Origin: Sphingomonas bacterium
GTDB lineage: Bacteria; Pseudomonadota; Alphaproteobacteria; Sphingomonadales; Sphingomonadaceae
Assembly (NCBI RefSeq): GCF_028292945.1
Contig: NZ_JAQGLJ010000013.1
Location: forward strand, 1 to 38,294
Length of the DNA stretch: 38,294 bases
Reading direction: 5' to 3'
Positions within the stretch are counted from its first letter, which is position 1; every line of letters starts with the position of its first letter. Under the pieces are notes generated by a model. It worked only from the letters and a program-made list of their open reading frames with translations, was not told the origin of the DNA and searched no databases. This document shows, piece by piece, positions 21,817 to 38,294 of this stretch. The position numbers were made by a program, and so were the translations under genes.

Positions 21817-21910
21817 GCCATGCGGCGTGCGCCGGGCGACAGGTTGCTGACAGTTTTCCACGCTAGTCCCGTTGTAGAAAAAAGAAGCATCAAGAGAGGG
21901 TATAGCTGAA

Positions 21911-22462
21911 ATGCGCATCAAATTACGTGCAGTGCTCGCCACCGCGCTCATCGGCGTCGTCGCCGCTCCCACCGTCGCTCAGGATATCCCGCGTGCGGCG
22001 TCTACCCCGCAGACGGCCAAGAACTGGCGCGGCCCGACCGGCAAGATCAAGGCGCAAGCCTTGGTCGACAAGCTGATCGCCGGCCACAAGGAGATCATGA
22101 GCATCACCATGCACGCTCAGCCTGACGGGTTGACCGGCGACGCATACACGATGATCGCGGGCTCGTTTCCCGATCGGATCGGCAACACGTCCTCGCCCGG
22201 CGACATCATCACCGCCAAGAAGGGCGTGACCCAGGTCGAGTCGAAATGGGGTACTCCAGATTACGGCAAGAAGGTCTCGATCGTGATCCCGCTGAAGGAC
22301 AGTGCGGGCAAATACCTGCCGGTTGCGATGGTTATCGCCTTTCATCAGTCGCCGGCCACCCGCAAGAAGGATACCGACTTCATGCAGCCGGGGATCGCGA
22401 TCCGTGATGGGCTCAGCAGGCAGATACCGAACCTCGCATCCCTCTACGCACCCGCCGGCTAA
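21911..22462 (+). CDS. Small exported protein, possibly Cache/PDC-like
   Basis: A 183-residue protein with a clear Sec signal (LRAVLATALIGVVAAPTVAQ). The mature part has SITMHAQPDGLTGDAYTMI, then DRIGNTSSPGDIITAK, and VSIVIPLKDSAGKYLPVAMV. This spacing resembles the single sensor (Cache/PDC) domains that bind small ligands, but without any membrane or signalling domain attached. I do not recognise a named family, and the Cache suggestion is inference. It lies 94 nt after the porin and 50 nt before the YncE-type gene, and is probably co-transcribed with both. Confidence 0.75.
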   Translation: MRIKLRAVLATALIGVVAAPTVAQDIPRAASTPQTAKNWRGPTGKIKAQALVDKLIAGHKEIMSITMHAQPDGLTGDAYTMIAGSFPDRIGNTSSPGDIITAKKGVTQVESKWGTPDYGKKVSIVIPLKDSAGKYLPVAMVIAFHQSPATRKKDTDFMQPGIAIRDGLSRQIPNLASLYAPAG

Positions 22463-22512
22463 GCCTCGGTTCGGCTGATCGTTCGGGGCAGCGAGTCCCC
22501 AGGAGGTATATC

Positions 22513-23589: not shown

Positions 23590-24489
23590 TCAGTCGAGCG
23601 GTCGATATGGGCCGCGTGCGATGATCGCGCGGGCGGCCGCACTGCTTATGAAGACGGCGAAGTCGGCTGCGATCGGACGGGGCACGGGATCGGCATACGC
23701 CACGACCTCGCGCTCGAACGGATAGCCAGGCTGACCGGGCAAGCGTGGCTGCCCGTCGACCACGACGGGAAGCACGCGCGTGCCGGGGTATTTGGTGGCA
23801 TCGCCAAGACCAAGCGCAGCCGGGTCGCGCGCAACTGCAGCCGCGATCTCGGCTCCGAAGCTGTCGCGTCCAAGATCAGGTGCGCGGACGTCGGTTCGCT
23901 CGCGGACTCGGCGCCAGTCGAGCTGGACGCGGCCGGCGAGCAACGACGCGCGCAGGTAGCGGCCGGTGCCGCCGTCCGACCATGGCATCACCACCACGAC
24001 CGGCCGTTGCGCCAGCGGGCCGCCGGCGCCGAGTTCTGTCCAGCGCGGTGGGTCACCGTACGCCCGAAAGGCGACCGTAAGCTGTTCACGGGTTATCGCC
24101 CGGAGCGAATTGTCCACATGCACCCGCACCGCCAGCGCGGGCGAATGGCCCGGCGTTGCAACGCTGCCGCGAAACACCGGTGTCGCCACCGGCAGCTTGC
24201 GGTGGATCCACTCATAGGCTTTCAGCTCTTGATCATGGCCGCGCCGGCCGATGATCGCCAGTTCGGAACGACCGGTCGAAAAGCGTGCCATCGCCACGTC
24301 GCTGCCGACAGCGAGGATGGCGACACGCCGGCCCGGACGTGCCCGCTCATAGGCCGCGGCAAGCGCCCGCAGCGTCGGCGCGAGCTGGGCGCTGGTCGCC
24401 ACCTCCAACACCGGTCCGCTGCGCGCGGGCGGCGCGATCTCGGCGCTGAGGGCGAGCGCCGCGATCGGCAGCATAAGGTAGCGGATCAT
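23590..24489 (-). CDS. PstS-like binding protein J (last, shortest array member)
   Basis: A 299-residue exported protein, the last gene of the array. A signal peptide (LMLPIAALALSAEIAPPA) precedes a PBP-like fold: VGSDVAMARFSTGRSELAII is the first ligand loop. DGGTG (172-176, in MPWSDGGTGRYL) stands where PstS has its SGT phosphate loop, making J the only member besides A with a recognisable version. It lacks the NIRTWGQLGL and LSREGQ motifs of the other members; WTELGAGG and FISSAAARAI stand in their places. It is therefore the most diverged, although intact. Start ATG 24489 overlaps the upstream stop by 4 nt. No lipobox. Confidence 0.8.
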   Translation of the reverse strand: MIRYLMLPIAALALSAEIAPPARSGPVLEVATSAQLAPTLRALAAAYERARPGRRVAILAVGSDVAMARFSTGRSELAIIGRRGHDQELKAYEWIHRKLPVATPVFRGSVATPGHSPALAVRVHVDNSLRAITREQLTVAFRAYGDPPRWTELGAGGPLAQRPVVVVMPWSDGGTGRYLRASLLAGRVQLDWRRVRERTDVRAPDLGRDSFGAEIAAAVARDPAALGLGDATKYPGTRVLPVVVDGQPRLPGQPGYPFEREVVAYADPVPRPIAADFAVFISSAAARAIIARGPYRPLD

Positions 24490-25544
24490 TGCAGCTTCGC
24501 CCGTTCGCGCAGCAGCGTCGCGCGGTCGAGCGGTAGGTAGCCGCTGTCCTCGACCAACGCCGTCTGTCCCTCGCGGCTGAGGATGTAGCGCAGGAACTCG
24601 CGATCGGCGGGCGTCATGCCCTTCCCGGGTGCGCGATCGACGATTGCCGGGATGATCCGCACCAGGGGATATCGCCGCGCCATCAGCGTGGCATTGGTCG
24701 CCGGGACAAAACCACGCTTCGCGCTCCAGGCGAGCGGCAGCGCACGTACCATCGGATTGGCGAAGCGCACATTGGAGATGCCGATCCCGCCGGGGTCTTT
24801 GGCGAGCGCCTCCAGGATCAGCTGCCCGTGCTGGATGACCTGCCCGTTCGGCTGGGTGACCGGCATGTATTCGCGCGACGCCGGATTCCACCGGTGACTG
24901 TCGCAGAGCACGCGCTCGCGGAAGAACAGCGCGAAGTCGACATCGGTCTTCCAGACATAGGGCTGGATCGGACGTCGCGCCCACGCCCCCGTAAGGCCGA
25001 GCCCGTCCCAAGTGCGGATGTCGCCGGGACCGCAGCGATTGCCCGCTCCGAACACCCCTGCAAGCTGGCGGACCGTCAGCCCAGCTAGCGGATTGTCGCG
25101 ATGGACGAAGACCATGTGCGCATAATCGAAGAAGTTCGTGTCGACGCTGCCGTTCGCTATCTCGACGATGGTCGGCGCATAGCCCTTCGCGCGGCGGAAC
25201 ATGCGCGCCGACGCCGGACTGATCTCTTCGCCCAAGATGGCGAGCGTACCCGCGCCACTGGCAAGCGCGCTGACCGCAGAGGCCGTTCCGTACATGCGGT
25301 AATCGAGCCGGACGTCGGGGTGATCGCGCTGGAACTCGGCGAACCACCGCCTGACGAGGGCGCCGACGAAATCGTGCCGCGGGCTGCCATGTCCCCAGAC
25401 GCTGATCGTGCCGCGCACACTGGGGCCGGGCGTGTAGGACGGCAGCGAAGCCAGGGTGCGCGCGACGTAAGGGTCTATCGCCGGGCGGGGCGGCTCGCTG
25501 GCGGCCGCGCAAAGCAGGGCGACGGCAAGAACGAGGCGCTTCAT
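24486..25544 (-). CDS. PstS-like binding protein I
   Basis: A 352-residue exported protein. MKRLVLAVALLCAAASEP is a Sec signal; the cysteine is not followed by a lipobox-like context, so a lipoprotein is unlikely. Framework: LPSYTPGPSVRGTISVWGHG, MYGTASAVSALASGAGTLAI, HRDNPLAGLTVRQLAGVFGA, IRTWDGLGLTGAWARRPI and FLRYILSREGQTAL. The loop that is SGT in PstS reads YVWKTDVDFALFF, so phosphate ligation of the classical type is not expected. Starts at ATG 25544 in a 4-nt overlap. The longer frame to 25988 is a shadow of gene H. Confidence 0.85.
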   Translation of the reverse strand: MKRLVLAVALLCAAASEPPRPAIDPYVARTLASLPSYTPGPSVRGTISVWGHGSPRHDFVGALVRRWFAEFQRDHPDVRLDYRMYGTASAVSALASGAGTLAILGEEISPASARMFRRAKGYAPTIVEIANGSVDTNFFDYAHMVFVHRDNPLAGLTVRQLAGVFGAGNRCGPGDIRTWDGLGLTGAWARRPIQPYVWKTDVDFALFFRERVLCDSHRWNPASREYMPVTQPNGQVIQHGQLILEALAKDPGGIGISNVRFANPMVRALPLAWSAKRGFVPATNATLMARRYPLVRIIPAIVDRAPGKGMTPADREFLRYILSREGQTALVEDSGYLPLDRATLLRERAKLQ

Positions 25545-26527
25545 CGCACGTCTTCCAGCTTGCCCAGCTGAGCCCGGGCGATATCCCGCGAGAGCGGCAG
25601 GTAGCCCGTCTCCGCCACCAGCATCTGCCCCTGTTCCGACAAGACAAAGCGCAGGAAGGCAAGCACGTGAGGGGCGAGCGGCGCGCCCGGCTTGCGCGCG
25701 AGGAAGGCGAAGGCGCGGCGGGCGAGCGGATATCGCCGAGCGGCCACGCTGTCCCGGGTCGGCGATACCGCCTCGCCGTCGCCGTCCGCCAGCGCAACGA
25801 GCTTGAGCCCGTCCACCGCCTGCGCCGGATTGGCGATCGCCAGCGCGAACCGGTCGCCCCGCGCGCCCTCGCCGATGCGGTCCGCAGCCTTGGCCACCGT
25901 GCCGTCGAGGCGGTGACGATCGCGATATTCGACGATCCGGTCCCAGCACATGCGCCGGTCGTTGCCGGTGACGCGCTTCTGGAGCCACGCGCCGGTCCGT
26001 GTCGCAAGGTCATAGCTGTGTATGCGGATGGGCCCGTGGCGCCATGATCCACCGGCGCCGAGCTGGCCCCAGGTCGTGATCGCGCGCGGCTGATCGCCAC
26101 AGTCGAGGATGCGCGACAGCTGATCGAGGGTCAGTGATCGGATCGGATTGTCGCGCGCGACCAGAACTGCGATCGCGTCGGATTTGCCGGGCTCGCTGAG
26201 GCTGCCGGTCGCGATCTCGATCCGCGTAGCCGCATATTCCTTGGGCCGGGAGAAGCCGTTGTCATCGACGATGTCGTTCTCCCGCCCCAGCAGTGCGACA
26301 TCGGCGACCCCGCCAGTCAGGCCATGGATGGCGCTGTCGGACCCCTTCATGTGGAATTCGATGCGCGCGTCAGGGTGCGCCTTGCGATACGCGGTCGCCC
26401 ACGCCTCGGCGACCCCCAGCAGCGCGGGCGTGCCCCAGATGCGGATCGGTGCGACCGCAGGCTCCGCCCGCGTGGCCGACGCCAACAGCACAGCCGCGAG
26501 CGAGGCGATGATCGGTGCGGCCTTCAT
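25541..26527 (-). CDS. PstS-like binding protein H
   Basis: A 328-residue exported protein with signal IIASLAAVLLASATRAEP. The mature domain begins directly with IRIWGTPALLG and lacks the LPxYxP entry of its neighbours. Other framework: MKGSDSAIHGLTGGVADVAL, IATGSLSEPG, ARDNPIRSLTLDQLSRILDC, ITTWGQLGAGGSW and FLRFVLSEQGQMLV. The SGT position reads HSYDLATRTGAWL. A C-rich pair (LDC, RMC) might form a disulfide in the periplasm. Both junctions are 4-nt overlaps. Confidence 0.83.
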   Translation of the reverse strand: MKAAPIIASLAAVLLASATRAEPAVAPIRIWGTPALLGVAEAWATAYRKAHPDARIEFHMKGSDSAIHGLTGGVADVALLGRENDIVDDNGFSRPKEYAATRIEIATGSLSEPGKSDAIAVLVARDNPIRSLTLDQLSRILDCGDQPRAITTWGQLGAGGSWRHGPIRIHSYDLATRTGAWLQKRVTGNDRRMCWDRIVEYRDRHRLDGTVAKAADRIGEGARGDRFALAIANPAQAVDGLKLVALADGDGEAVSPTRDSVAARRYPLARRAFAFLARKPGAPLAPHVLAFLRFVLSEQGQMLVAETGYLPLSRDIARAQLGKLEDVR

Positions 26528-27627
26528 GCGAGCACCCTGCGCTGCCGCTCTGCCGCGGCAGGTGACAGTGGCAGATAACGGCCGTCGCGGTTGATCGCCT
26601 CCTGCCCCTCTCGGCTGAGGACGAATTGTAGGAATGCGCGCGCGCCGGGGTCGATGCGACCGTCCGGCCGCCGATCGATCACCGCCGGCAAGGTCCGCGC
26701 GAGCGGGTAGCGCTGTTCGATCAGGCTCGCCTGATCGACCGTGACGAAGGGCCCCGCCGGCGTGTGCGCAAGCGCCAGCGGTTTGACGTCGGGTCCCGCG
26801 TAGCGGATGTTGGACACGGCCAGGCCGCCAGAATCCTTGGCGAGCGCGTCCAGAATCTGTTGCCCGTGATCGTAGATCGTGCCGTCGGGATTGTTGATGT
26901 GGGCGAACTCGCGCAAGGCCGAGTTCCAGCGATGGCTGCCGAGCAGCACCGCGTTTTGCAGGTAGAAGCCGAAGCTGTCGTCGATCGCCCAGCTATACGG
27001 CACGATCGGCCGTTCGGCCCAGCGGCCGCGCAGGCCCAGTTCGCCCCAGCGGCGAATGATCCGGTCGCCGCGGCGGTGCTCGACGCCCAGAATCGCATCC
27101 AGTTCGACCAACGAGATGCGTGCCAGGGGATTGTCGCGATGGACGAAGATCATCTGCGCGAAATCGAAGTTGCGGATGTCGACGCTGCCGGTCATCAGCT
27201 CGACGCCGGTCGGCGGATAGCCCTTCACGCGTTCGAACGCGCGCGCGGCGTCCGGCAGGATCTCCTCGCCCAGCAAGGCGACGTCGCCGAGCCCGTTGTA
27301 GAGCGCCGGGATGCCCGACGAGGTCCCGTAGAGGTGAACGTCGAGCCGCGCCCGGGGATGGAAGCGCCGGAAACCCTCCTGCCACAGATCGACGAGATGG
27401 TGCATCCAGGGAAGCTTGCGGTTGCCATGGCCCCAGAGCCGGATCGGGCCGTCGAACCGCCTATCGGGGCGGTATGGCGGGAAAGTGGCCACCACGCGCA
27501 CCGCGACGCTGCCAGGCGGCTGCGGCCGCGGATCGATACGCTGCACGGCCGGCGTCAGGCGCTGCGCCATCGCCGGCAGCCCCAGGCTGGTGACGACGCC
27601 GCCCAACACGGCGCGCCGAGTCGTCAC
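26524..27627 (-). CDS. PstS-like binding protein G with Tat-type signal
   Basis: A 367-residue exported protein starting with GTG 27627 (GTGA overlap). The N-terminus TTRRAVLGGVVTSLGLPAMA has twin arginines followed by a hydrophobic stretch and an AxA-like cleavage site, a Tat-type signal, unlike the Sec signals of the other array members. Framework: FPPYRPDRRFDGPIRLWGHG, LYGTSSGIPALYNGLGDVAL, VHRDNPLARISLVELDAILG, RWGELGLRGRWAERPI and FLQFVLSREGQEAI. The SGT position reads YSWAIDDSFGFYL. It is closest to protein I by the GTSS/LLGEEI loop. Confidence 0.85.
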   Translation of the reverse strand: MTTRRAVLGGVVTSLGLPAMAQRLTPAVQRIDPRPQPPGSVAVRVVATFPPYRPDRRFDGPIRLWGHGNRKLPWMHHLVDLWQEGFRRFHPRARLDVHLYGTSSGIPALYNGLGDVALLGEEILPDAARAFERVKGYPPTGVELMTGSVDIRNFDFAQMIFVHRDNPLARISLVELDAILGVEHRRGDRIIRRWGELGLRGRWAERPIVPYSWAIDDSFGFYLQNAVLLGSHRWNSALREFAHINNPDGTIYDHGQQILDALAKDSGGLAVSNIRYAGPDVKPLALAHTPAGPFVTVDQASLIEQRYPLARTLPAVIDRRPDGRIDPGARAFLQFVLSREGQEAINRDGRYLPLSPAAAERQRRVLA

Positions 27628-28844
27628 CGCGCGTCCAGCTTGGCTAGCTGGTCGCGTGCCGCAGACGGTGTCAGGGGCAGATACTTGCCGTCGTCCTGCA
27701 CCGCCGCCTGACCTTCCCGGCTAAGGACGTAGCGGAGGAACTCGCGCTTGAGCGGATCGACCGGCCTGCCCTTCTTCTTGCCCAGATAGTAGTAGACGTC
27801 GCGCAGCAGCGGATAGCTGCGATCCTGCACCGTGCGGATCGTGAGCGGCACGGGCGCAGCCCCATCCTTGGACAGCGCCAGCGCCTTGGTCTGGGGGGTC
27901 AGGAAAGGGATGCCGGTATAGGCGATGCCATAGCGGTCCTTCGACAGCGCGTCTGCGATCAACTCGCCGCCGGGGGTCAGCGACCCGTCGGCCTTCAGCC
28001 CTGCGGCGTTGGAGAAGGCGCGGATATTCTCGTTCCACTTGGACGAGCCCTTGATCACCCTTTTGTCGATCTCGTCGCCGAAATGATATTTCGCGTTGTA
28101 AGCGTAGATGGTGATCGGCTTGTTCGCCCATTCGCCTTTGAGGCCGAGCTGGCCCCACGTGCGGATGTTCTTCTCGGGGCCGCGCGCCCAGTCGGTTCGC
28201 CAGGTCAGCCCGTCCCAACCGCCGTCGCGCTGCGCGCCGAAGATGCCGTCGAGCTGTTCGAAGCTCAACTGGCTGAGCGGGTTGTCCTTGTGGACCAGGA
28301 TCGCCAGCGCGAACGACCAGCCGCGCACGTCGTAGCTGCCGGTCGCCATGACGATCTCCAGCGGCTCGACCGTAGCAACGCCCACCTCGCCGCCCCCCGC
28401 GCCGCCTTCGCGCTCGAAACCCTTCAGCTCGTCCCACAAAGCCTGCCTGCCCATCGGCGCGAGATCGGCGACACCCGCGATCAGCCCCGGAAAGGCGACT
28501 GCCGAGGACGTAAGATTATCCTCGAATTTCACGTCCGGATGATGCTTGCGGAATCCGGCCTCCCAGATCTCCACCAGGCCCGAGTCCTTGATGTAGTTGT
28601 TGCCCCATTGGCGCAGCGTGCCTTTCATCGGCGGCGACGGCCGATACTCGGGGAGCCCCGACAGGTCGAACTGAGGCTGGTAGAACTTCTTGACCTTGCG
28701 CGCCTTGGTGCCGATCGCACGCGCCTTGGAGAGTGCGTCGGCATCTCGCGTCGATCCCGCCGGATTGTCCTGTGCGACCGCGGCGGGGCAGAGTGTGATC
28801 GCCACGGCGAGCGTGAAGCCGCTCCATGCTTTTAGGCAATTCAT
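27624..28844 (-). CDS. PstS-like binding protein F
   Basis: A 406-residue exported protein. I start it at ATG 28844 (MNCLKAWSGFTLAVAITL), the first start with a signal peptide and with GGAGA upstream; the frame to 28973 adds unrelated residues. The LC-PAA sequence is not a lipobox because leucine precedes the cysteine. A lysine-rich spacer (KARKVKKFYQPQFD) leads to LSGLPEYRPSPPMKGTLRQW, then SSAVAFPGLIAGVADLAPMG, MATGSYDVRGWSFALAILV, LDGIFGAQRDGGWDG, NIRTWGQLGLKGEWANKPI and FLRYVLSREGQAAV. The SGT position reads YAYNAKYHFGDEI. It is followed by gene G with a 4-nt overlap and preceded by a 70-nt gap, the longest in the array. Confidence 0.88.
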   Translation of the reverse strand: MNCLKAWSGFTLAVAITLCPAAVAQDNPAGSTRDADALSKARAIGTKARKVKKFYQPQFDLSGLPEYRPSPPMKGTLRQWGNNYIKDSGLVEIWEAGFRKHHPDVKFEDNLTSSAVAFPGLIAGVADLAPMGRQALWDELKGFEREGGAGGGEVGVATVEPLEIVMATGSYDVRGWSFALAILVHKDNPLSQLSFEQLDGIFGAQRDGGWDGLTWRTDWARGPEKNIRTWGQLGLKGEWANKPITIYAYNAKYHFGDEIDKRVIKGSSKWNENIRAFSNAAGLKADGSLTPGGELIADALSKDRYGIAYTGIPFLTPQTKALALSKDGAAPVPLTIRTVQDRSYPLLRDVYYYLGKKKGRPVDPLKREFLRYVLSREGQAAVQDDGKYLPLTPSAARDQLAKLDAR

Positions 28845-28914
28845 GCCGAAGTCTCCGGCTTTCGCCACTCTGCGGCAGCGACTTGTGCGGTTCGCGGCAA
28901 CATCGTCACTGGCT

Positions 28915-30126
28915 TCAACCTCCCTCTCCCTGCGTGGCCGCACCCACGGCGTCGATAGCTCGTAGCTGGGCATGCGCGGCTTCGGCCGTGAGAGGCAGGT
29001 ATTTACCGTCCTTCATGATCAACGCTTGACCCTCGCGACTAACGACGAAGCGCAGGTATTCGGCGATCAGCGGGTCCAGCTTCTCGCCGGGCTTGCGGTT
29101 GGCGTAGAAATACACTTCCCGCGTTAGTGGATATTGTCGTGCCTGGACGCTTTCCAGCGTCGGCATGACGTACGGCCCGGCGGCAGTCTTCGCCAGCGGC
29201 ACGGTTTTTACATTCGGCTTGTCGGCGTAGAGCATCGCCGTGTACGTAATAGCGTACTTGTCCTTGCCCAGGTCGTCCATCATCTGATCGCCCGCGTTCC
29301 ACAGCTTGCCATAGTCGCCGTCGCTCTCGCGAACTTTGTTGCTGTATTCGGTCAGCGTCTCGTTCCACTTGTACCCGCCGCCGAACACCTTTTCGGCGAA
29401 GTCGCGGGGAAAGTGGAAGTTCAGCGTGTAGGCGAGCACGCGAATCGGCTTGTTCGCCCATTCGCCGGTCAGCCCAAGCTCGCCCCAGGTGCGAATATTC
29501 TTCTCAGGGCCGCGCGCGACGCTTTCGTCCCAGCTGTTGAAGTGCCAGCCGCCGTCGCGCTGAGCCCCGAAGATTCCGTCAAGCTGCTCGATGGACAGCT
29601 TGGACACTGGATTGTCCTTGTGGACGAACGGCACCAAGGCGAACGACCAGCCCGACACATCAAACGATCCGGTCGCCATCATAATCTCGACCGGTAGCGT
29701 GCCCATCACCCGCTGATAGGCCTGCAACTCCTCCCAGCTTGGACGTCGACCCATCGGAGCCAACTCGGCCTGACCCGTGTAGAGCCCGGCCATACCGATA
29801 AAGGTGCTTTCCAACTTGTTTTGAAAGCGTACCTTGGGATGATACTTCTTGAACGCGTTCTCGAAATATCCCTCCAGGGGACTGTCGGCTAGGTAGTTCG
29901 ACCCCCATTGCCGGATCAGGCCCTTCATCGGCTTGGATGGTCTGTATTCAGGCAGGCCAGACAGGTCGAATGCCTTGGTGTAGGCGCGGCGCAGGCCCTT
30001 GGTCTTCAGTGCGTCGGCGCGTGCCTTCTGCAGGTCGAGCGAGTTCATCGACCCCACCGGTGTCGTTTGCGCGTGCGCGACGGCAGATGTGGTCAGGGCG
30101 AGCGCGATCAGCATGGTACGGGTCAT
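28915..30126 (-). CDS. PstS-like binding protein E
   Basis: A 403-residue exported protein with signal MLIALALTTSAVAHAQ. It is very similar in layout to F: a basic spacer, LSGLPEYRPSKPMKGLIRQW, FIGMAGLYTGQAELAPMG, MATGSFDVSGWSFALVPFV, HKDNPVSKLSIEQLDGIFG, NIRTWGELGLTGEWANKPI and YLRFVVSREGQALI. The SGT position reads LAYTLNFHFPRDF. The E and F copies share long stretches such as LDGIFGAQRDGGW, so they probably arose by a recent duplication. Start ATG 30126 is in a 4-nt overlap with gene D. Confidence 0.88.
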   Translation of the reverse strand: MTRTMLIALALTTSAVAHAQTTPVGSMNSLDLQKARADALKTKGLRRAYTKAFDLSGLPEYRPSKPMKGLIRQWGSNYLADSPLEGYFENAFKKYHPKVRFQNKLESTFIGMAGLYTGQAELAPMGRRPSWEELQAYQRVMGTLPVEIMMATGSFDVSGWSFALVPFVHKDNPVSKLSIEQLDGIFGAQRDGGWHFNSWDESVARGPEKNIRTWGELGLTGEWANKPIRVLAYTLNFHFPRDFAEKVFGGGYKWNETLTEYSNKVRESDGDYGKLWNAGDQMMDDLGKDKYAITYTAMLYADKPNVKTVPLAKTAAGPYVMPTLESVQARQYPLTREVYFYANRKPGEKLDPLIAEYLRFVVSREGQALIMKDGKYLPLTAEAAHAQLRAIDAVGAATQGEGG

Positions 30127-31319
30127 GGCGCGGGCTCCAGCTTAGCGAGTTGTGCCCTGACCACCGCGGCGGTCAGCGGAGTGTAGCGGCCCTCGCGCTG
30201 GATTTGCTCCTGGCCCTGCTGGCTGAGGATGAAACGCAGGAACTCCTCGACCTTGGGCTCCATCGGCCGGCCAGGCGGCTTGTCGGCGTAAAAGAAGATC
30301 TCGTTGATCAGCGGGTAGCTGCGGTCGCGGGTCGTCTCCAACGTCCGCTGAACGAAGGGCCCACCGTCGAAGCCCTGCACGGCGAGTTCCTTCAGCTTCG
30401 GACCCAGTGCTAGGGGCGAGGCGATGCAGATCGCCAGCGGGTCGCTCTCCGCGTAGGCAAGCACCTGCTTGCTCCACGAGTTGATCGTGTTCTCTGGCGT
30501 CGCGTAGTTGGCGAAAGCCTGATAGCCTTCCACCCACTGATCGCTGCCGCGAAGCACGCGATTCTGGAACACGCCCTGGATGTTTGCGCGCGGGCTTTGT
30601 CCACACGTATGGATCGGCTTGTTCGCCCATTCGCCCATCAGGCCCAGTTGGCCCCAGGTGCGGATGTTCTCCTCGGGTCCGCGCTTGAAGGGGTAGTCGT
30701 TGCGATAGGTGCTGCCGTCATAGCCGCCATTCCTCGCGCCTCCGAACACCCCGTCCAGCTGCTTCATGCTGATGCGGGTGATCGGATTGCTCTTGTGGAC
30801 GAGGATGATGAACCCGGGCGACCAGCCATAAACGTCGTGCGAGCCGGTCGCTGCAGTGATCTCCGTGATCGGATATTTGAATACCTGTTCGAAGGTCAGG
30901 TGGTCCATCAGCGTCGCCGGCCGGCCGACGCCCAGGTCAGCGACCTTGCCCGCCACACCAGGCACCGCGATGCCGGCGGTAGGCAGATTATACTCGATGA
31001 CGACGCCGGGCTGGTGCTTCCTGAACTCGGTGGCCCAATATCCGCCGAGCGGCCCATCCTTGAGGTAGTTGCTCCCCCAGATCCGAAGCGTGCCCGACAC
31101 CTGCCGTCGGGGCTGGTAACGTGGCAGATCGCTCAGATCCCACTTCTTCGTGTAGCCGCCGAGTTCCGCGTTGCGCTTGCGGAAGTCGGTGACGTTGAGC
31201 GTCCAGATGCTACGCTTGGCGTTGGGGTTCTGGCTGGTCTGCGCGGGCGGCGGAGGCGTTTCTTGCGCCAGCACCGACGCGTTGAGAAGCAGGACGACGG
31301 ACGTGAACAGCGTTTTCAT
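30123..31319 (-). CDS. PstS-like binding protein D
   Basis: A 398-residue exported protein; ATG 31319 opens signal LFTSVVLLLNASVLAQE, so the longer frame to 31412 is not needed. After a proline-rich spacer come LSDLPRYQPRRQVSGTLRIW, TAGIAVPGVAGKVADLGVG, AATGSHDVYGWSPGFIILV, HKSNPITRISMKQLDGVFG, NIRTWGQLGLMGEWANKPI and FLRFILSQQGQEQI. The SGT position reads CGQSPRANIQGVF, keeping a serine but not SGT. Both ends are 4-nt overlaps with the neighbouring array genes. Confidence 0.88.
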   Translation of the reverse strand: MKTLFTSVVLLLNASVLAQETPPPPAQTSQNPNAKRSIWTLNVTDFRKRNAELGGYTKKWDLSDLPRYQPRRQVSGTLRIWGSNYLKDGPLGGYWATEFRKHQPGVVIEYNLPTAGIAVPGVAGKVADLGVGRPATLMDHLTFEQVFKYPITEITAATGSHDVYGWSPGFIILVHKSNPITRISMKQLDGVFGGARNGGYDGSTYRNDYPFKRGPEENIRTWGQLGLMGEWANKPIHTCGQSPRANIQGVFQNRVLRGSDQWVEGYQAFANYATPENTINSWSKQVLAYAESDPLAICIASPLALGPKLKELAVQGFDGGPFVQRTLETTRDRSYPLINEIFFYADKPPGRPMEPKVEEFLRFILSQQGQEQIQREGRYTPLTAAVVRAQLAKLEPAP

Positions 31320-33679
31320 GGACGATCTCCCGAGCTGGCAGTGACCTGGGGCACGATGCGGTCCAGTTTGGCCGCCTCGACGCGCGACACGGCGGCGGTG
31401 AGCGGCAGCCACTTCCCGTCTTGCTGGATGATCTCCTGCCCATCGCGGCTGAGCACGAAGCGGAGGAACTCGCGCACCCGGGGATCGAGCGGCTGCCCCG
31501 GCGCGGCATCGGCATAGGCATAGGTTTCGAGGTGCAAGGGATAGGTGCGATCTTGAACCGTTCCCAGCGTCGGCGCGACGAAAGGGCCGGTCGCGTCATG
31601 TGCTACCGGGACGATGCGCGCCCCCGCGACGCCGATGCCGGGCTCGGCAAAGGCGATGCCGCAGCCATCGCGCACCGCGGCCGCCACACGGTCGCGACCC
31701 GGCTGCGTGCGGGCCCCGGTGCTGTCGAGCGCGAGCGGTATCTCGCGCGCGGCGTCGTTCCACATGTTGCCGCCGACCAGCACCTTGCGTTCGAAGACCG
31801 ACATGAGATGGTATTTGAGCGGCGGCACATACACCGTGATCGGCCGACTGGCGCAGCGCCCGGTCACCCCCAGCTGCCGCCAGAAACGGATGTTGGCGTC
31901 GGCGCTCCGCCCGGCCTGCCGCCGCCAGGTGGTCGATACCCAGCCGCCGCGCCGCGGCCCCCCGAAGATGCCGTCGAGCTGACGGATTGTCAGGCCTTTG
32001 AGCGGATTGTCGCGCGCGACGTAGATCGCGAAGGCCGGGCTCCAGCCGGGGACGTCGAACGACCCCGTCGCGACCTGGATCTCGCGCGGCGAGCGATCGT
32101 GCTTCAGCTGGAAGTCATAAAATTCGCCGGCGAAATAGCTGCTCCACTTGCGCCCGATCGACAGATCCACGGCACCGTCGATCAGGTCGCCATCTTTCAG
32201 ATCGAAGCTGATGCCTGGATGCTGGCGGGTGAAGGCCGCAATCAGCGCCCTGCCGGCGGTCCCGGTTGTCAACTGACCGCTGGCCGGCATCCGAATAACG
32301 CCCGCGACCGGCCGCTCGGGCGTGTAGCGTGGCAGGCCCGAGAGATCGAAGCGCTGTGTGTAAAAGGCCTTCGACGCCGGCGTGCGACCCGTTTCATCGG
32401 GGCTGTCGCCGTCCCACTTCCTCGGCGCCAGCTGCGCCAGTTGAAGCCCCAACGCGTGGGGATCGACGCGCTCGCCGACGGCATCCAGCTTGCGTCGCAT
32501 CTCGGCCGCGCGGGGCGCGGGCAGGGTAATCCACTTGCCGTCGCGCTGCACACCGTCCTGGCCGTCACGGCTGAGCATGAACTTCAGGAACGCCTTGACC
32601 AGCGGGGTCAGCCGCTTGCCCGGCGCCAGTCGCACCTGCGCCCATTGTTCGACGAATAGGGGATAAGATCGGTCGCGCAGCGATTGCAGGGAGATCGGCA
32701 CGAACGGCCCGGCCGCGGTCGCGCCGAGCGGCACCGCGCGCACCCCCGGCCGGTTGGAACCCATGTCGGAAAAGGAGATGCCGTAGCGGTCCTTGGTCAG
32801 ATCCTTGACCATCTCGACGGAGGAGGAATAGCGCGTGCCGTCGGCGTTGGCCTCGTGGCTGTATTCGCGCGTGTTCTCGTTCCACATGTCGCCGCCGTCG
32901 AAAACCTTCCGTTCGAAGCCGAGCTGGATGTTGTATTTGAGCGGACGGCCGTAGATCGCGATCGGTTTGTCTGCCCATTCTCCCGTCAAGCCAAGCTGAC
33001 CCCAGGTACGGATGTTCTTCTCCGGCCCGCGAGCGGCGGACCGATCCCAGGTCGTGCCCTTCCAGCCGCCGGTACGCGCGCCTGCGAAGATGCCGTCGAG
33101 CTGGCTGACGCTTAGATGTGTTAGCGGGTTGTCCTGGTGAACGTAGATCACGAACCCGGGACTCCAGCCGGGCACGTCGTAACTGCCGGTTGCCCAATCG
33201 ATCTCGAACAGCCGCTCGCCCGTGGCGAGTTCGTATTGCGATGCCGCGCGCAAGCGATCGGAGATGCGCGGACCGGTCTCGATGTCGACTGCTCCCGAGG
33301 CGATCGTGCCCTTGGGCAGGATCACCACCTTCACCTTGGGATGGAAGCCCTGAAAGGCCGCGACCCACTGATCCTTGATCAACCCATCGTGAAGGTAGAG
33401 CCCTGAGACGCGGATCGTCCCCGAAAGCTGTTCGGCAGGGCGATAGGCGGGCAGGTCTGCAAGTGGCTGCAGATCGGTGTAGAAGCGCTTGTGCTTGCGT
33501 GCGTCGGTCCGCGAATCATGTTCGCCACGGATGACGAGGTTCTCGCGCATGCCGTCGCCGAGCCGATCCAGGAGCTGTTGATAGGTCTCGCCGGTCGGGC
33601 GCTTGTCGTCCTGCGCGCCCGCCACGGCCGCACTCAGCAGTGCGACCGCGACGATCCCCATCCTGGTGTACCGGATCAT
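31316..33679 (-). CDS. PstS-like binding protein C with two tandem binding domains
   Basis: A 787-residue exported protein, the longest array member. The signal is VAVALLSAAVAGAQ. Domain 1 spans about residues 76-398 (LPAYRPAEQLSGTIRVSGL, ATGSYDVPGWSPGFVIYV at 163-180, NIRTWGQLGLTGEWADKPI at 222-240, LSRDGQ at 369-374). Domain 2 spans about 447-773 (LSGLPRYTPERPVAGVIRM, ATGSFDVPGWSPAFAIYV, NIRFWRQLGVTGR, LSRDGQ at 743-748). The SGT positions read YGRPLKYNIQLG and YVPPLKYHLMSV, so both halves share LKYx. Each half corresponds to a whole neighbouring gene, so this is a fusion of two array members. Start ATG 33679 has GGAG at normal spacing. Confidence 0.87.
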   Translation of the reverse strand: MIRYTRMGIVAVALLSAAVAGAQDDKRPTGETYQQLLDRLGDGMRENLVIRGEHDSRTDARKHKRFYTDLQPLADLPAYRPAEQLSGTIRVSGLYLHDGLIKDQWVAAFQGFHPKVKVVILPKGTIASGAVDIETGPRISDRLRAASQYELATGERLFEIDWATGSYDVPGWSPGFVIYVHQDNPLTHLSVSQLDGIFAGARTGGWKGTTWDRSAARGPEKNIRTWGQLGLTGEWADKPIAIYGRPLKYNIQLGFERKVFDGGDMWNENTREYSHEANADGTRYSSSVEMVKDLTKDRYGISFSDMGSNRPGVRAVPLGATAAGPFVPISLQSLRDRSYPLFVEQWAQVRLAPGKRLTPLVKAFLKFMLSRDGQDGVQRDGKWITLPAPRAAEMRRKLDAVGERVDPHALGLQLAQLAPRKWDGDSPDETGRTPASKAFYTQRFDLSGLPRYTPERPVAGVIRMPASGQLTTGTAGRALIAAFTRQHPGISFDLKDGDLIDGAVDLSIGRKWSSYFAGEFYDFQLKHDRSPREIQVATGSFDVPGWSPAFAIYVARDNPLKGLTIRQLDGIFGGPRRGGWVSTTWRRQAGRSADANIRFWRQLGVTGRCASRPITVYVPPLKYHLMSVFERKVLVGGNMWNDAAREIPLALDSTGARTQPGRDRVAAAVRDGCGIAFAEPGIGVAGARIVPVAHDATGPFVAPTLGTVQDRTYPLHLETYAYADAAPGQPLDPRVREFLRFVLSRDGQEIIQQDGKWLPLTAAVSRVEAAKLDRIVPQVTASSGDRP

Positions 33680-33693
33680 GGTCGAGGCTCCGC

Positions 33694-35436
33694 TCAGTCG
33701 AGCTTCTTGCGCTGCTCGGCCAGATACTTGGCGTCGAGCGGATAGTAATAGCCGACCCTGGCGATGATTTCCTGCCCCTCGCGGCTCAGCACGAAGCGCA
33801 TGAACTCGCGCACCTTGGGATCGAGCGGCTGACCCGGCGCCTTGTTGACGTAGAAGAAGCCGTCGCGATGCAGCGGATAGCTGCGGTTGGCGACGGTCTG
33901 CGGCGTCAGCGCGATCGCCGGTTCGCCCTTCTTCTCCGAAATGCGCAGCACCTTGAGATTGGGGAAGTTCTTGACGTGCATGAGGCCGGCGATGCCGATG
34001 CCGGTGGTATCCTTCGAGAGAACCTCCAGCGGCCGCCGCGAGTCAACCTGCAGACCGAAATCGTCGGACGTGGTCTGCTTCGCCTCCACATATTCCATGA
34101 AGTTGGAGTTCCACTTCTTGGACCACTTGAACCAGTTGCGCTCGAAATAGGTCGCGAAGCCAGGCGCCGAGTAGCCGTAGGTCTGGATTTCCTTGTTCGC
34201 CAACGCGCCTCGAACGCCGAGTTGGCCCCAACTACGAATGTTTGTCGACTTGGGGCGCGCGAATTCCGACGTGAAGCGGAAGTCGTTCTCAGCCGCTTTC
34301 CAGCCGCCCGACCGCTCGGACCCGAATACCCGCGTGAGTTCGTCCACCGATATCTCGTTGAGCGGATTGTCCTTGTTGACCACGATCGCCCAGGCCCACA
34401 GCGAGCCGCGCTTCTCATAGCCACCCGACGCGACCGAGATCTCGGTCGGCATATAACCGAATGTGTTCCAGAACGGCATCATGTCGGTGATCTTCGCATC
34501 GTCACCCATCGGTGCGACATCCGAAATGCCGGTGTACAGGCCCGCGATGCCGCCCTCGGACGATGACGCATTGCTCCAGCTGATGCGGATGTTGGGATGA
34601 AACGCCTGGAACCCCTTCATCAGGTACTCGACCGCGTTCTTCAGTTCGGAGCCGTACACACGCAGGGTGCCGGTGATCTTGGTGTCGGGTTTGTACCCCG
34701 GGAGATCGGGCAGCGACGGGGGCGGCAGTTCGGTGTAGCGCGCGATCGTCTCCGGCCCGGTGGTGCGCAGGCTTTCCTTGACCTTGTCGAGACGCGCGTA
34801 GCCCGCGTTGCTGCTGGTCAGATTGGCACGCAGCCCGGTCTTGACCTCCTCGGACCGCCGGAATGAGATCGGATCCCGATACTCCATCACCAGCCAGGTC
34901 TTGCCTTTCCCGTCGGCCTGGCGCGCCTGATACATCGAATGGCGCATCATGATCCGTGCGTTCGTCTGGCTCTCCATGAACGGTGCAATGTAGTTGGTGG
35001 CGAAATCCCGCGTTGCCGCGGCAGGTGCAGTCGGCTGGTACTCGTTGACCTTGAAGACCGAATAGTTGCTGTCGCGCGGGGTACGTTCGCCATGCGACAG
35101 CCGGTCGACACGCACCACCGTCACGGCGCCGAGCTTGGACTGGTTGGTACGGACCCACGCCTCATAGTCGGTTTCGGTCGGAAACTCGACTTGGACAAAG
35201 GTTGCAAAGCCAGGGTTGGCACGCTGTTCGGCGTCCAGCCACAGCACGTCCGACACCTCGCCGGACTGACGCCACGCCGACAATTTGTCGGCCAGGTCGG
35301 CCGGCGCTTGGGCGCCGGCTGGTACCGTGATGACGATGTTGGCGGGATCCGCCAGCGCGGGCGTGGCGGTGACAAGCGCGATGAACGACGCCAGCGGTGC
35401 GGCGGCGCGGAGGACAGATTTCGGCAGGAAGCGCAT
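33694..35436 (-). CDS. PstS-like binding protein B with extra N-terminal domain
   Basis: A 580-residue exported protein. The signal ends near TATPALAD (residue 30). Residues 31-235 are an extra region with no match to the other members; two segments (FVQVEFPTETDYEAWVRTNQ and WLVMEYRDPISFRRSEEVKT) look like paired ferredoxin-like alpha+beta units, as in dimeric alpha-beta-barrel proteins (inference). The PstS-like domain is about 245-580: LPGYKPDTKITGTLRVYGSE, EGGIAGLYTGISDVAPMG, VNKDNPLNEISVDELTRVFG, NIRSWGQLGVRGALANKEI and FMRFVLSREGQEII. The SGT position reads YGYSAPGFATYFE, one step from the pattern in A. AAAGGA precedes the ATG at 35436. Confidence 0.85.
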   Translation of the reverse strand: MRFLPKSVLRAAAPLASFIALVTATPALADPANIVITVPAGAQAPADLADKLSAWRQSGEVSDVLWLDAEQRANPGFATFVQVEFPTETDYEAWVRTNQSKLGAVTVVRVDRLSHGERTPRDSNYSVFKVNEYQPTAPAAATRDFATNYIAPFMESQTNARIMMRHSMYQARQADGKGKTWLVMEYRDPISFRRSEEVKTGLRANLTSSNAGYARLDKVKESLRTTGPETIARYTELPPPSLPDLPGYKPDTKITGTLRVYGSELKNAVEYLMKGFQAFHPNIRISWSNASSSEGGIAGLYTGISDVAPMGDDAKITDMMPFWNTFGYMPTEISVASGGYEKRGSLWAWAIVVNKDNPLNEISVDELTRVFGSERSGGWKAAENDFRFTSEFARPKSTNIRSWGQLGVRGALANKEIQTYGYSAPGFATYFERNWFKWSKKWNSNFMEYVEAKQTTSDDFGLQVDSRRPLEVLSKDTTGIGIAGLMHVKNFPNLKVLRISEKKGEPAIALTPQTVANRSYPLHRDGFFYVNKAPGQPLDPKVREFMRFVLSREGQEIIARVGYYYPLDAKYLAEQRKKLD

Positions 35437-35457
35437 AACGGGTCCTTTGTTGAAAGA

Positions 35458-36513
35458 TCAATCGAGCTTGGCGAGCTGCTCGCGACGCATTGCGGCAGGC
35501 AGCGGGAGGTAGTTTCCGTCGGCGACCAGCGTCTGACCTTCATCGCTCAATGCGAAACTTAGAAAGGCCTTCAGCTTCGGGTCGAGCGGAGCGCCTGGTT
35601 TGCGGTCAAAATAGATGTAGATGTTGCGCACCAGCGGATAGCTACGGTCGCGAAAGCTCGCCTGGGTCGGGACGACGGCCCTGCCGCCTCCGCGCGGCGC
35701 GACTGCCAGCAGCTTCAAGCCGGGAATCCCTTTCGCCTGACTCATCGTGGTCCAGCCGATGCCGTAAGGGTCCGTTGCTAGCTCGTTGCCCAGCATGTGC
35801 TTGGCGCCCAACGTCTGCCCGGCTTTGTCGATGGCGGCGATCTGCTTGCTGCCGGTCTCCACATAGCCCTTGTAGTTCGGGTTCCACTTGTCCGTGTTCG
35901 CAAGGACATGGAGCTGGAAGAAGCGTGTCGTGCCCGAAGGTCCGTGCCCATAGGTCTGGATCGGCGCGTCCTTCCACTTGCCTGTCAGGCCGAGCCTCCC
36001 CCAGCTGCGGATGTCCTTGTCGGCGCCTCGCGCGCCCGCGGGCGTCCAGACGAACCCGTCCAGTCCGCCATTGCGCGCCGCGCCAAAGACGCCATCAAGC
36101 TGATCGACCGAAATCTCGGTGAGCGGATTAGATTGGTGGACGAAGACCACCGGCCCGTTTGATCGCCCATCCACGTCGAAAGCCCCCGACGCGACCACCA
36201 CGAACGACGCCGGGTAGCCGCGCGTCTCGTAGAAGCTCAGCGCTTCCACGATAGACGGCTCGCCCCCGTTCGGGCCTAGGTCGGCCTGATAGGTAACAAG
36301 GCCTGGGAACGCCGCATCACTGGTCGGCAGCGTGTCCTTGAAGGTCACCTGTGGAAAGCGGCGCTGGAACGCCTCCTCCCACTTCTTCAAGACGCCGCCG
36401 AGCGCAAAACCGTAGTTCCGAATCTCGCCGGCGATGGGTGCCGGAGCGCCGCCCTGCGCCGCCGCCGCGTTCGGCAGCGCGCAGATCAGCAGCGCAAGCG
36501 CGAACCGTTGCAT
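35458..36513 (-). CDS. PstS-like binding protein A (first array member, SGT loop intact)
   Basis: A 351-residue exported protein with signal FALALLICALPNAAAAQ. Framework: GEIRNYGFALGG, TSDAAFPGLVTYQADLGPNG, VASGAFDVDGRSNG, VHQSNPLTEISVDQLDGVFG, DIRSWGRLGLTGKWKDAPI and FLSFALSDEGQTLV. Residues 189-199 read GHGPSGTTRFF, with S193-G194-T195 placed exactly where PstS has its phosphate-binding SGT. Its start codon shares one base with the stop of the TonB-dependent receptor (TGATG), so it is translated directly after the receptor. A true phosphate, arsenate or related oxyanion ligand is plausible. Confidence 0.87.
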   Translation of the reverse strand: MQRFALALLICALPNAAAAQGGAPAPIAGEIRNYGFALGGVLKKWEEAFQRRFPQVTFKDTLPTSDAAFPGLVTYQADLGPNGGEPSIVEALSFYETRGYPASFVVVASGAFDVDGRSNGPVVFVHQSNPLTEISVDQLDGVFGAARNGGLDGFVWTPAGARGADKDIRSWGRLGLTGKWKDAPIQTYGHGPSGTTRFFQLHVLANTDKWNPNYKGYVETGSKQIAAIDKAGQTLGAKHMLGNELATDPYGIGWTTMSQAKGIPGLKLLAVAPRGGGRAVVPTQASFRDRSYPLVRNIYIYFDRKPGAPLDPKLKAFLSFALSDEGQTLVADGNYLPLPAAMRREQLAKLD

Positions 36514-38294
36514 CAGAATGTGAACCGCGTCGTCAGCGTCCCATAGCGCGGCGCGCCGGGCGAAATCTGGATCCGTGCCGTGGCACCCGTGTTCTCGATG
36601 TATCGCTTGTCGAAGATGTTCCCGACCTTGAGGTTCACCGAAAAGCCCTTGCCGGTATAATACAAACCGGCATCGACGATGGTGTAGGCCGGCAGCGGGA
36701 TGATGCTGAGATCCGTGGCGGTGGTCGGCAGCACACCGGTCCGCTCACCGGTATAGATCACGCCCAGGCCAATCCCGATGCCGTTCGAGAAGTCGTAGCG
36801 CGTCCACATGTTGGCCGCGTTCTTGGCGACGTTCGGCAGCTGCCGGCCCTCCTGAAACTCCGAGCCGGGGCGGGCCTCCAGCACGAAGGCCTTGATGTGC
36901 GTGTAGCCGAGGATGACCTGCCAATTGTCGACCGGCGTCAGATTGCCCTCAATCTCAAAACCGTCCGACCTGCCGCGGCCGATCTGCGTCGCGCACGTGC
37001 CAAAGGTGCAGGCGTCGGTCGTGACCTGCCCACGCTGATCGATGCGATAGACCGCGGCGGTGAACGAGAGTCGATTGTCGAGCAGGTTCTCGGCCTTCAC
37101 CCCGGCTTCGACCTGCGTACCGGTGATCGGCGTGAACACGCCGAGATTGCCGTTGAAGTCCTGCAATGCCGGGTCATTGGGCACGAAGGACTGGGCATAG
37201 CTGCCGTAGAAAGTGACTTTCTTTGACGGCTGGATGAGCACGCCCGCGCTTGGCAGAAAGCTGCGCTTGTCGGTACGCTTGAGCCGCGGCGAGTTGAGGC
37301 GGCGATTCGCCTCCACGTCGGCAGTCTCGCTGAAGTTTCGGCCGCCGAGGCTGACCTTCAACCATTCGGTCAATGTCAGCAGGTCGGAAACGTAGATGCC
37401 GTAGTTGCTCTGCCTGACATAGCGGTCGGTCAGCAGGATCGCTTGATTGGCAAGCTGCGGGTTGGTCGCGCCCAGGCTGTCGAATGCCGGCGTCGTTGTG
37501 TAGATCGGGTTGTACAGCCCGATATCGAGACAGGTGCCGTTTACCGGACACAGGCCCGTGGTGGCGTTGCGGTTGCTGGAGTTAAAGAACTTCAGCCGGT
37601 TCTCATTGACCAGGTCCTTGCCGAAGTTGAGCCCGACGAGCAGCTTGTGCCCGACCCCGAAAGTGTCGAAATTGCCGGAGAGGTTCGCGTCGACATAGTC
37701 GTATTGGCGCGCCGTCTGGAGATGGCGCGCGCGCCGCAGAACACGACGCTCGCCAGCCACAAGTGCATAGCCGGTGTTGCTGAATTCTTTCTGGTTGCTG
37801 TCGTACCGCACCCGACGATAGCCGATGTTGGCGCGCCAATCGGCACCGAACTGGTGCTGCAGGAACAGATTGACCGCCGATCCCGTTTCCGCACGGAAAT
37901 CTGTCGGCTGCTGATACGTGGTGGTGATGTCCGCGATCTGGCTGGGGTCGAAGAACGTCACACCGCTGACGGTCACCTGCGGCGCGACCAGGAATTGGTC
38001 GAAATGCTCGCGCGTGTGACGATATTCATATTGCGCAGTCAGCGCCGTGTGCTCGCCGATATTCCAGGTCAGACTGGGCATGATAAATTCGGACTTGCTG
38101 AACGCGAAGTCGCGAAAGCCCTCCCGGCTACTGATCTCGCCAACGATCCGTCCTAGGATGGTGTCACCGACCAGCGAGCCGGTCACATCCACCGCGCCGG
38201 TGATAGAATTGCGATCGAAGTCGTCAACGAACCTGGAAACGAAGGTAGTGCCGCGCAGTTCGGCGACTGCGGCGAAGTTGCGCTTTGGCTTCTT
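36513..38294 (-). CDS. TonB-dependent outer-membrane receptor, C-terminal part (N-terminus beyond window)
   Basis: The frame is open from the right edge (38294) to TGA at 36513; about 593 residues are visible, all beta-barrel. Strand-loop features: HTALTAQYEYRHTREHFDQF, GADWRANIGYRRVRYDSNQ, LLVGLNFGKDLVNENRLKFF, LLTLTEWLKVSLGGRNFSE, VTFYGSYAQSFVPNDPAL, VEAGVKAENLLDNRLSFTAA and the terminal YGTLTTRFTF ending in Phe. The FDKRYIENTG turn near the end is typical of ferrichrome-type (FhuA/FhuE-like) receptors. Two loops carry close cysteine pairs (CPVNGTC and CTFGTC). The plug domain and TonB box are not visible. It is the lead gene of the array and its promoter is off-window. Confidence 0.9.
   Translation of the reverse strand, partial: KKPKRNFAAVAELRGTTFVSRFVDDFDRNSITGAVDVTGSLVGDTILGRIVGEISSREGFRDFAFSKSEFIMPSLTWNIGEHTALTAQYEYRHTREHFDQFLVAPQVTVSGVTFFDPSQIADITTTYQQPTDFRAETGSAVNLFLQHQFGADWRANIGYRRVRYDSNQKEFSNTGYALVAGERRVLRRARHLQTARQYDYVDANLSGNFDTFGVGHKLLVGLNFGKDLVNENRLKFFNSSNRNATTGLCPVNGTCLDIGLYNPIYTTTPAFDSLGATNPQLANQAILLTDRYVRQSNYGIYVSDLLTLTEWLKVSLGGRNFSETADVEANRRLNSPRLKRTDKRSFLPSAGVLIQPSKKVTFYGSYAQSFVPNDPALQDFNGNLGVFTPITGTQVEAGVKAENLLDNRLSFTAAVYRIDQRGQVTTDACTFGTCATQIGRGRSDGFEIEGNLTPVDNWQVILGYTHIKAFVLEARPGSEFQEGRQLPNVAKNAANMWTRYDFSNGIGIGLGVIYTGERTGVLPTTATDLSIIPLPAYTIVDAGLYYTGKGFSVNLKVGNIFDKRYIENTGATARIQISPGAPRYGTLTTRFTF

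Follow-up and report, generated by a model that had tools for sequence, protein, structure and literature searches.

A TonB receptor-linked array of eleven PstS-fold domains in Sphingomonas as a candidate carboxylate capture module

Binding proteins are usually taken for components of ATP-binding cassette (ABC), tripartite ATP-independent periplasmic (TRAP) or tripartite tricarboxylate transporter (TTT) importers, and the names given to PstS-like genes often refer to phosphate; the SGT loop of PstS contacts the phosphate. A TonB receptor is combined with a periplasmic binding protein in the Fec ferric-citrate system of E. coli, and citrate loci of the TctDE/CitMHS/OprB type are also known. The subject of this report is an array of ten genes for PstS-fold binding proteins behind a TonB-dependent receptor gene, found in a 38,294-nucleotide stretch of Sphingomonas bacterium (contig NZ_JAQGLJ010000013.1); this whole stretch is called the window below.

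The orphan TctC/Bug (TTT) expansions of Bordetella, Cupriavidus and Rhodoplanes appear to be the closest analogue (PMC5994714, PMC5812351). According to the available text of these two papers, many exported binding-protein paralogues outnumber their membrane partners, and the ligands in the characterised TctC cases are carboxylates or amino acids. However, these proteins belong to the TctC/TTT family, their expansion is mainly lineage-specific, their genes are scattered over the genome, and the word TonB occurs 0 times in either main text, whereas the window array is of PstS type, linked to a receptor, and orthologous across distant groups at most of its positions. An annotation made from the letters alone (the sequence-only reading) had stated that it knew of no described system with this many tandem paralogues after one receptor. 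The nine-gene tandem array of orphan TctC/TTT binding proteins in Rhodoplanes calls for a qualification here, although that array is of another family and TonB is absent from the text in question (PMC5994714). TonB and YncE genes occur in XoxF3 clusters, for which a lanthanide link was considered, and the text available for that paper mentions no such binding-protein array (PMC10875860). No description of a receptor-plus-array module was found in the open-licence PMC papers searched, and within this literature the system looks undescribed so far.

The array and its genome

The array consisted of ten successive minus-strand genes, B2 to B11 (23590-36513), with 11 PBP_like_2 (PstS-fold) domains. 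Coordinates, PF12849 matches and the TonB profile match confirmed the one receptor and ten successive genes for exported proteins described in the sequence-only reading. We slightly favour the view that this is a TonB-dependent capture module for di-/tricarboxylates, probably citrate and perhaps metal-citrate, which would be delivered to ion-coupled symporters. The observations behind this view are the gene content, the absence of PF00528 from this genome, the loss of the phosphate loop, the orthology of most array positions and the recurrent partners.

The genome (2.79 Mb, 99.99% complete) gave 0 matches in whole-genome searches for pstC and for PF00528, the ABC-import permease family, and 26 family matches for PstB (TIGR00972), all below the cut-off. 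All 14 control genomes were positive in both the pstC and the PF00528 search, and in 12 of them pstC exceeded its cut-off. These searches ruled out a classic Pst locus whose other genes lie outside the window; a permease just outside the window was excluded because the genome had neither a pstC nor a PF00528 match, and the lack of a permease partner noted earlier thus held genome-wide. A general loss of ABC-import permeases in array bearers was rejected, since PF00528 was found in 18 of 18 other array-bearing genomes (3-107 each); their complete lack is a peculiarity of the genome studied here.

The array genes were as follows.
35458..36513, minus strand: B2, PstS-fold binding protein, position 1 (PF12849 60 bits; orthologue clade support 0.999)
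33694..35436, minus strand: B3, N-terminal domain fused to a PstS-fold domain, position 2 (model with predicted local distance difference test score, pLDDT, 87.8)
31316..33679, minus strand: B4, two PstS-fold domains in one chain, positions 3 and 4 (two PF12849 stretches)
30123..31319, minus strand: B5, PstS-fold binding protein, position 5 (PF12849 38.1 bits; reciprocal best match, 79%, with locus L051)
28915..30126, minus strand: B6, PstS-fold binding protein, position 6 (PF12849 35.1 bits; L051 counterpart 83%; clade support 0.997)
27624..28844, minus strand: B7, PstS-fold binding protein, position 7 (PF12849 43.1 bits; clade support 0.978)
26524..27627, minus strand: B8, PstS-fold binding protein, position 8 (PF12849 25.5 bits, cut-off 27; clade support 0.996)
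25541..26527, minus strand: B9, PstS-fold binding protein, position 9 (PF12849 68.2 bits; clade support 0.988)
24486..25544, minus strand: B10, PstS-fold binding protein, position 10 (PF12849 34.2 bits; clade support 0.983)
23590..24489, minus strand: B11, most divergent PstS-fold binding protein, position 11 (PF12849 40 bits; clade support 0.683)

A hidden Markov model search with PF12849 placed all ten products in one family, nine of them above the curated cut-off (all except B8), and a six-frame search of the whole genome found 11 places, all inside the window. Six of the nine junctions among the array genes were 4-bp overlaps, and the other three were gaps of 14, 21 and 70 bases. Export-type leaders were recognised on all ten proteins by eye and by a hydrophobic stretch; that of B8 looked twin-arginine-like by eye. 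The lipobox pattern was found in 0 of the 10, in agreement with their earlier description as non-lipoproteins. The shared motif framework that had been proposed stood as a consensus and not as a universal feature: exact forms were present in 4-7 of the 11 domains (LPxYxP in 7, LDGxFG in 6, ATGSxDVxGWS in 5, IRTWGxLGLxGEWA and LSREGQ in 4 each), and relaxed IRTWG..., LSREGQ and DNPL forms in 10.

The predicted model of B3 consisted of an N-terminal ferredoxin-like/dimeric alpha-beta-barrel repeat (residues ~27-240) and a C-terminal PstS-fold domain (~255-580). The C-terminal part matched 4omb best (Z 27.1), and 3mcs (Z 15.2) aligned chiefly with the N-terminal part; against 4omb, B3, the only one of the ten proteins compared in this way, showed the PstS-type two-lobe fold over 291 residues with a root-mean-square deviation of 6.4. 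The N-terminal repeat resembles small monooxygenase-type folds. It existed as a stand-alone protein in three of the related loci (L054, L121, L108), and counterparts of the double-domain B4 were found in five (L051, L052, L053, L055, L056).

The closest solved relatives of the family profile were 4pqj and 4omb (E ~6e-68), which we take to be P. aeruginosa PstS, a phosphate-binding protein. The array proteins share with PstS of PstSCAB systems the fold, PF12849, and the LPxY and C-terminal framework. In contrast to PstS, the SGT loop was lost in 10 of the 11 aligned domains (B2 was the sole window domain with an SGT motif at the phosphate-loop position), a nine-residue insert (GSxDVxGWS in typical members) preceded the VHKDNP strand in all 11, and a TonB receptor was present instead of PstC. 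The cut-off of the PstS subfamily TIGR02136 (206.6) was reached by none of the ten proteins, the best score being 91 bits for B4. A search of the ten proteins with PF03401 (TctC) gave no match at E up to 0.1. Because the SGT loop is missing in ten domains, the alignment makes phosphate an unlikely ligand of the array.

The conserved module was larger than the coordinates first given for array and receptor; three further genes at 20392-23565 have to be added.
36513..38294, minus strand: TonB-dependent receptor, C-terminal 593 aa (Pfam TonB_dep_Rec_b-barrel, E 4.3e-49)
22513..23565, plus strand: exported beta-propeller (YncE/YVTN-like), convergent with the array (generic propeller matches below cut-off)
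21911..22462, plus strand: small exported Cache/PAS-like protein (NWGP), a recurrent array partner (model pLDDT 86.1)
20392..21816, plus strand: Porin_5 outer-membrane porin (PF16930, 1.3e-24)

The contig stops at 38294, which leaves the receptor gene open at its 5' end, and no other contig of the genome supplied the missing N-terminus (best of 7 matches 22-30% identical). L056 has a full-length receptor to which the window receptor was 58% identical; by sequence, the best PDB match of this L056 receptor was the enantio-pyochelin receptor 3qlb (E 4.9e-28), a similarity to siderophore receptors. Compared with Fec, the module has in common a TonB receptor with periplasmic binding proteins and the proposed citrate chemistry, but the L056 receptor was nearer to pyochelin/ferrichrome receptors than to FecA, the binding proteins are many, and symporters are proposed as the carriers.

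The three added genes matched genes near the L051 and L054 arrays at 50-69% identity. Propeller genes of 68% identity adjoined both arrays; the Cache-like protein shared 63-69% identity with its counterparts in L171 and L054; and the porin was 51-52% identical to Porin_5 genes near the L051 and L054 arrays (L171, L172) and is probably a module member. A kinase/regulator pair at 16672-18638 was rejected as TctDE; it was QseBC/PmrAB-like, and therefore no part in the module is claimed for it.

The model of the Cache-like protein had 22 Foldseek matches at E <=0.001. Citrate-bound CitA (2j80, E 1.8e-4) ranked second behind PcaR with modest template-modelling (TM) scores of 0.37/0.52, and further matches were CitA 1p0z (E 2.7e-4) and DcuS (3by8, E 2.5e-3). 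A Pfam search of the window protein gave no Cache match at E up to 0.01, and a homologous domain in L121 gave sub-threshold sCache_3 matches. Since the TM scores were modest and a second aligner favoured GAF domains, the model makes a small-ligand fold of PAS/GAF/Cache type likely and is only suggestive of citrate. The Cache-like domain also occurred twice in tandem ahead of a TonB receptor barrel (L121:13060-15951, L064:7798-9747) and in a long protein labelled beta-propeller (L115:8041-9933).

Recurrence and age of the arrays

Named genome contigs were scanned with six window domains; 109 stretches were confirmed and the best 80 were kept, giving 67 loci. According to a simple gene finder written for this analysis, 36 of the 67 loci had at least four adjacent same-strand binding-protein genes and 12 had at least eight, the longest run being eleven. 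A receptor lay within two genes of the array in 21 loci. The arrays came from sphingomonads, Betaproteobacteria, Gammaproteobacteria, Opitutaceae, Acidobacteria, Eremiobacterota, a Phycisphaeraceae metagenome-assembled genome (MAG), Streptomyces and Actinopolymorpha. The loci are not independent, because several are on shared contigs and 15 of the 67 came from one Opitutaceae MAG (JAQUYL01, ~3 Mb; L063, L082, L083, L086, L090, L092, L093, L097, L100, L101, L103, L106, L112, L113, L117), which thus carries a heavy load of such binding proteins.

Strong matches (E <1e-30) among 149 genomes of the family were limited to this genome and G025, and the same-genus genome G091 had no match; a sphingomonad-wide trait was therefore rejected. 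When 289 genomes of the class were searched with the B3 family, 18 matched at E 1e-30; the other 17 scored 154-208 bits and probably carry ordinary PstS. In G179, two B3-family places stood side by side. The patchy spread with high identity across phyla suggests horizontal transfer of the arrays.

Several variants were seen. Streptomyces and Actinopolymorpha had short three- and two-gene versions with no labelled receptor in those stretches (L062, L067). A smaller version with a CitMHS-like gene (phmmer) was located on the 1.76-Mb Novosphingobium resinovorum plasmid pSA1, typed conjugative (L118). Opitutae arrays (L088, L069, L094 and others) contained interspersed NMT1-type binding proteins, and L088 also an SBP_bac_3 protein, so that several binding-protein folds can occupy one locus.

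BLAST identity within the window had a median of 33% and a maximum of 50% (102 ordered pairs), and MAFFT alignment of the paralogues gave up to 52%. Compared with L051, positions 1-10 were reciprocal best matches with 58-83% identity and position 11 was not; compared with L056, all positions except 7 were. B3 (position 2) shared 72% identity with its counterpart in L088, 69% with L068, 68% with L071, 67% with L069, 64% with L102 and 59% with L063, all of Opitutae. Outside close relatives the order of positions was only partly kept. When 175 domains taken from 18 loci were placed in a tree, window positions 1, 4, 6, 7, 8, 9 and 10 fell into their own orthologue clades with support of at least 0.978, while positions 2, 3, 5 and 11 were weakly or not supported. 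Recent tandem amplification was rejected because the paralogues are far apart while orthologues elsewhere reach 83%. By these comparisons the paralogues are old, and most positions have orthologues elsewhere.

Carboxylate carriers and other partners

Genes for organic-acid carriers were found near related arrays: CitMHS (L051, L054), DctA (8 loci), 2HCT (L057, L071, L076, L080), DASS (L080) and TctC (L070). Enzymes near arrays were CitE/CitF (L099), a succinyl-CoA-ligase/citryl-CoA-lyase-like protein (L056), malate synthase with isocitrate lyase (L096), a pair accompanied by PepSY_TM, PrpD (L116) and lactate racemase (L086). The tested examples of CitMHS, DctA, DASS and CitF were above NCBIfam cut-offs; 2HCT and TctC were above Pfam cut-offs, 2HCT was below its NCBIfam cut-offs, and CitE was just under (429 vs 443).

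Partners were counted by phmmer with seeds from array loci in the 67 loci (1.03 Mb) and in 38 array-free stretches (504 kb; 23 of at least 11 kb) from 18 array-bearing genomes; 40 controls had been taken and 2 were dropped for array-type genes. Any of eight carboxylate seeds was present in 13 of the 67 loci and in 0 of the 38 controls, a contrast that is optimistic because the seed families were chosen after they had been seen in these loci, and the other checks therefore matter more. Between loci of at least 12 kb and controls of at least 11 kb the counts were 12/52 and 0/23 (Fisher p 0.014). The density of DctA in 18 whole genomes (58 places in 88.8 Mb) predicts 0.67 loci where 8 were observed (Poisson P 5.8e-7), with the reservation that the loci are not independent and that in 7 of the 18 genomes DctA was already known to accompany the array, so that the expected number is raised. 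When 116 unlabelled neighbours were assigned to Pfam families, 2HCT was the most frequent by a narrow margin with 4 members, followed by PALP, SBP_bac_5, MFS_1, DUF3016 and SBP_bac_3 with 3 each.

In the sphingomonad relatives L051, L052, L054 and L056, CitMHS or DctA stood directly ahead of the receptor, at 63, 13, -11 and 52 bases, and in gammaproteobacterial L070 DctA was 71 bases ahead. The order in L051 was regulator (best model TctD, below cut-off), 2CSK_N kinase, solute-binding protein, CitMHS, receptor and array, with divergent genes for Porin_5, DctA, the Cache-like protein and malic enzyme. The window's own genome had one CitMHS and four SDF carriers in total. On its contig C12, a 2CSK_N kinase (62% identical to the kinase near the L056 array), CitMHS, OprB and DctA were found together, and a solute-binding protein and a regulator were recognised by eye. 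L051 and L054 carry a regulator pair, a solute-binding protein and CitMHS ahead of the receptor; this set and the similar one with OprB on C12 resemble TctDE/CitMHS/OprB-type citrate loci. C12 differs in having no receptor-plus-array; the receptor-array part is what is added to this known arrangement. Because related clusters are often near citrate/dicarboxylate carriers, an organic-acid system is suggested rather than a phosphate system.

The same count found the other partners at these frequencies: the receptor in 24/67 loci vs 0/38 controls, the small Cache-like protein in 22/67 vs 0/38, the B3-type N-terminal domain in 18/67 vs 0/38, NMT1-type binding proteins in 13/67 vs 0/38, the beta-propeller in 13/67 vs 1/38 and PepSY_TM in 12/67 vs 0/38. 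In L056, a PepSY_TM gene was located inside the array, after the seventh domain.

Proposed function and rival explanations

In the slightly favoured carboxylate reading, the receptor would bring a di-/tricarboxylate across the outer membrane, citrate being the likeliest substrate and a metal-citrate complex a further possibility. PstS-fold proteins without a phosphate loop, one subfamily per array position, would capture different carboxylate species in the periplasm, and the ligand would cross the inner membrane through ion-coupled symporters (CitMHS, DctA, 2HCT, DASS) and not through an ABC permease. The Cache-like protein may recognise this ligand too, acting as a sensor or a docking component, and the PepSY_TM protein, where present, would reduce the metal. 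The simplest idea for the retention of ten binding proteins is that they serve different metal-citrate species or different acids. This mechanism would account for the partners, for the missing phosphate loop and for a genome free of PF00528 matches. It agrees with the sequence-only reading in the absence of a permease and in a TonB-supplied periplasmic capture with many specificities, an idea in line with the repeated linkage to a receptor and with array positions that form distinct orthologous groups; that reading had missed the carboxylate link, the Cache-like, propeller and PepSY partners, and the other phyla.

Several observations weigh against the carboxylate reading, besides the post hoc choice of seeds. 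None of the eight carboxylate seeds was present in 54 of the 67 loci, and none of the 15 Opitutaceae MAG loci was among the 13 that had one. A 2HCT gene lay on the same stretch as array-type genes in L167, a dropped control from this MAG. The window has no carboxylate carrier, its contig ending inside the receptor, and the genome's own CitMHS and one DctA sit on C12, which has no array genes. An RND (resistance-nodulation-division) pump also recurred (4/67 loci vs 1/38 controls), other binding-protein folds and unrelated enzymes were found near arrays, and VIA, the second aligner, put GAF domains first for the Cache-like protein (Z up to 10.8).

A bolder version, in which about ten non-redundant PstS-fold proteins form an ordered periplasmic relay or complex between the TonB receptor and the carboxylate symporters and are shared horizontally, is put forward only tentatively and seems rather doubtful; if true, it would be high-affinity binding-protein-dependent uptake without an ABC, TRAP or TTT permease. 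Acquisition of iron or another hard metal is also unlikely, and somewhat more so. The chelate would be taken up, the binding proteins would bind chelate variants, PepSY_TM would reduce the metal and carboxylate carriers would only recover the chelator. This would suit the L056 receptor, nearest in PDB to the siderophore receptors 3qlb, 1xkw, FhuA and CntO/FoxA, the recurrence of PepSY_TM-type genes, including the one within the L056 array, and the PepSY and 2Fe-2S protein in Paraburkholderia L121. However, carbon-metabolism enzymes stand near arrays, and the neighbours examined, in a search that was not exhaustive, included no recognisable siderophore synthesis or FecCD-type permease. A sensory role, with binding proteins presenting ligands to TctE-like kinases or other sensors instead of taking part in transport, is less probable again: at least ten binding proteins would be many for one kinase, the arrays are linked to an outer-membrane receptor and to carriers, and the window's own kinase pair is QseBC/PmrAB-like. 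In its favour are regulator/2CSK_N kinase pairs with a separate solute-binding protein beside CitMHS in L171, the 2CSK_N kinase beside CitMHS on C12, and the Cache-like domains fused to receptors. The citrate-binding TctC homologue BctC of Bordetella signals through BctE, according to the available text of PMC5812351.

A secreted or surface assembly of PBP-fold (periplasmic binding protein-fold) subunits, for adhesion, an appendage or a matrix, would be consistent with the export-type leaders, the many paralogues, the one two-domain chain and the one fusion, but it is highly improbable given that the recurrent partners are carriers and a TonB receptor, that no lipobox was found and that no secretion machinery was noticed among the window genes. 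The least probable explanation is the scavenging of phosphate or another oxyanion by many PstS copies with an unlinked carrier. The fold, the phosphate-binding closest solved relatives and the SGT motif kept by B2 speak for it; against it stand the loop lost from the other ten domains, the failure of all ten proteins to reach the TIGR02136 cut-off, the genome without a pstC match and the carboxylate genes that recur beside related arrays.

Given that eleven PstS-type domains follow a TonB receptor in a genome without PF00528, and that such sets recur in several phyla, some database entries may be misnamed as 'phosphate-binding', and a periplasmic stage with multiple receptors may exist in TonB systems. 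The finding gives a directly testable class of substrates, namely di-/tricarboxylates and metal-citrate.

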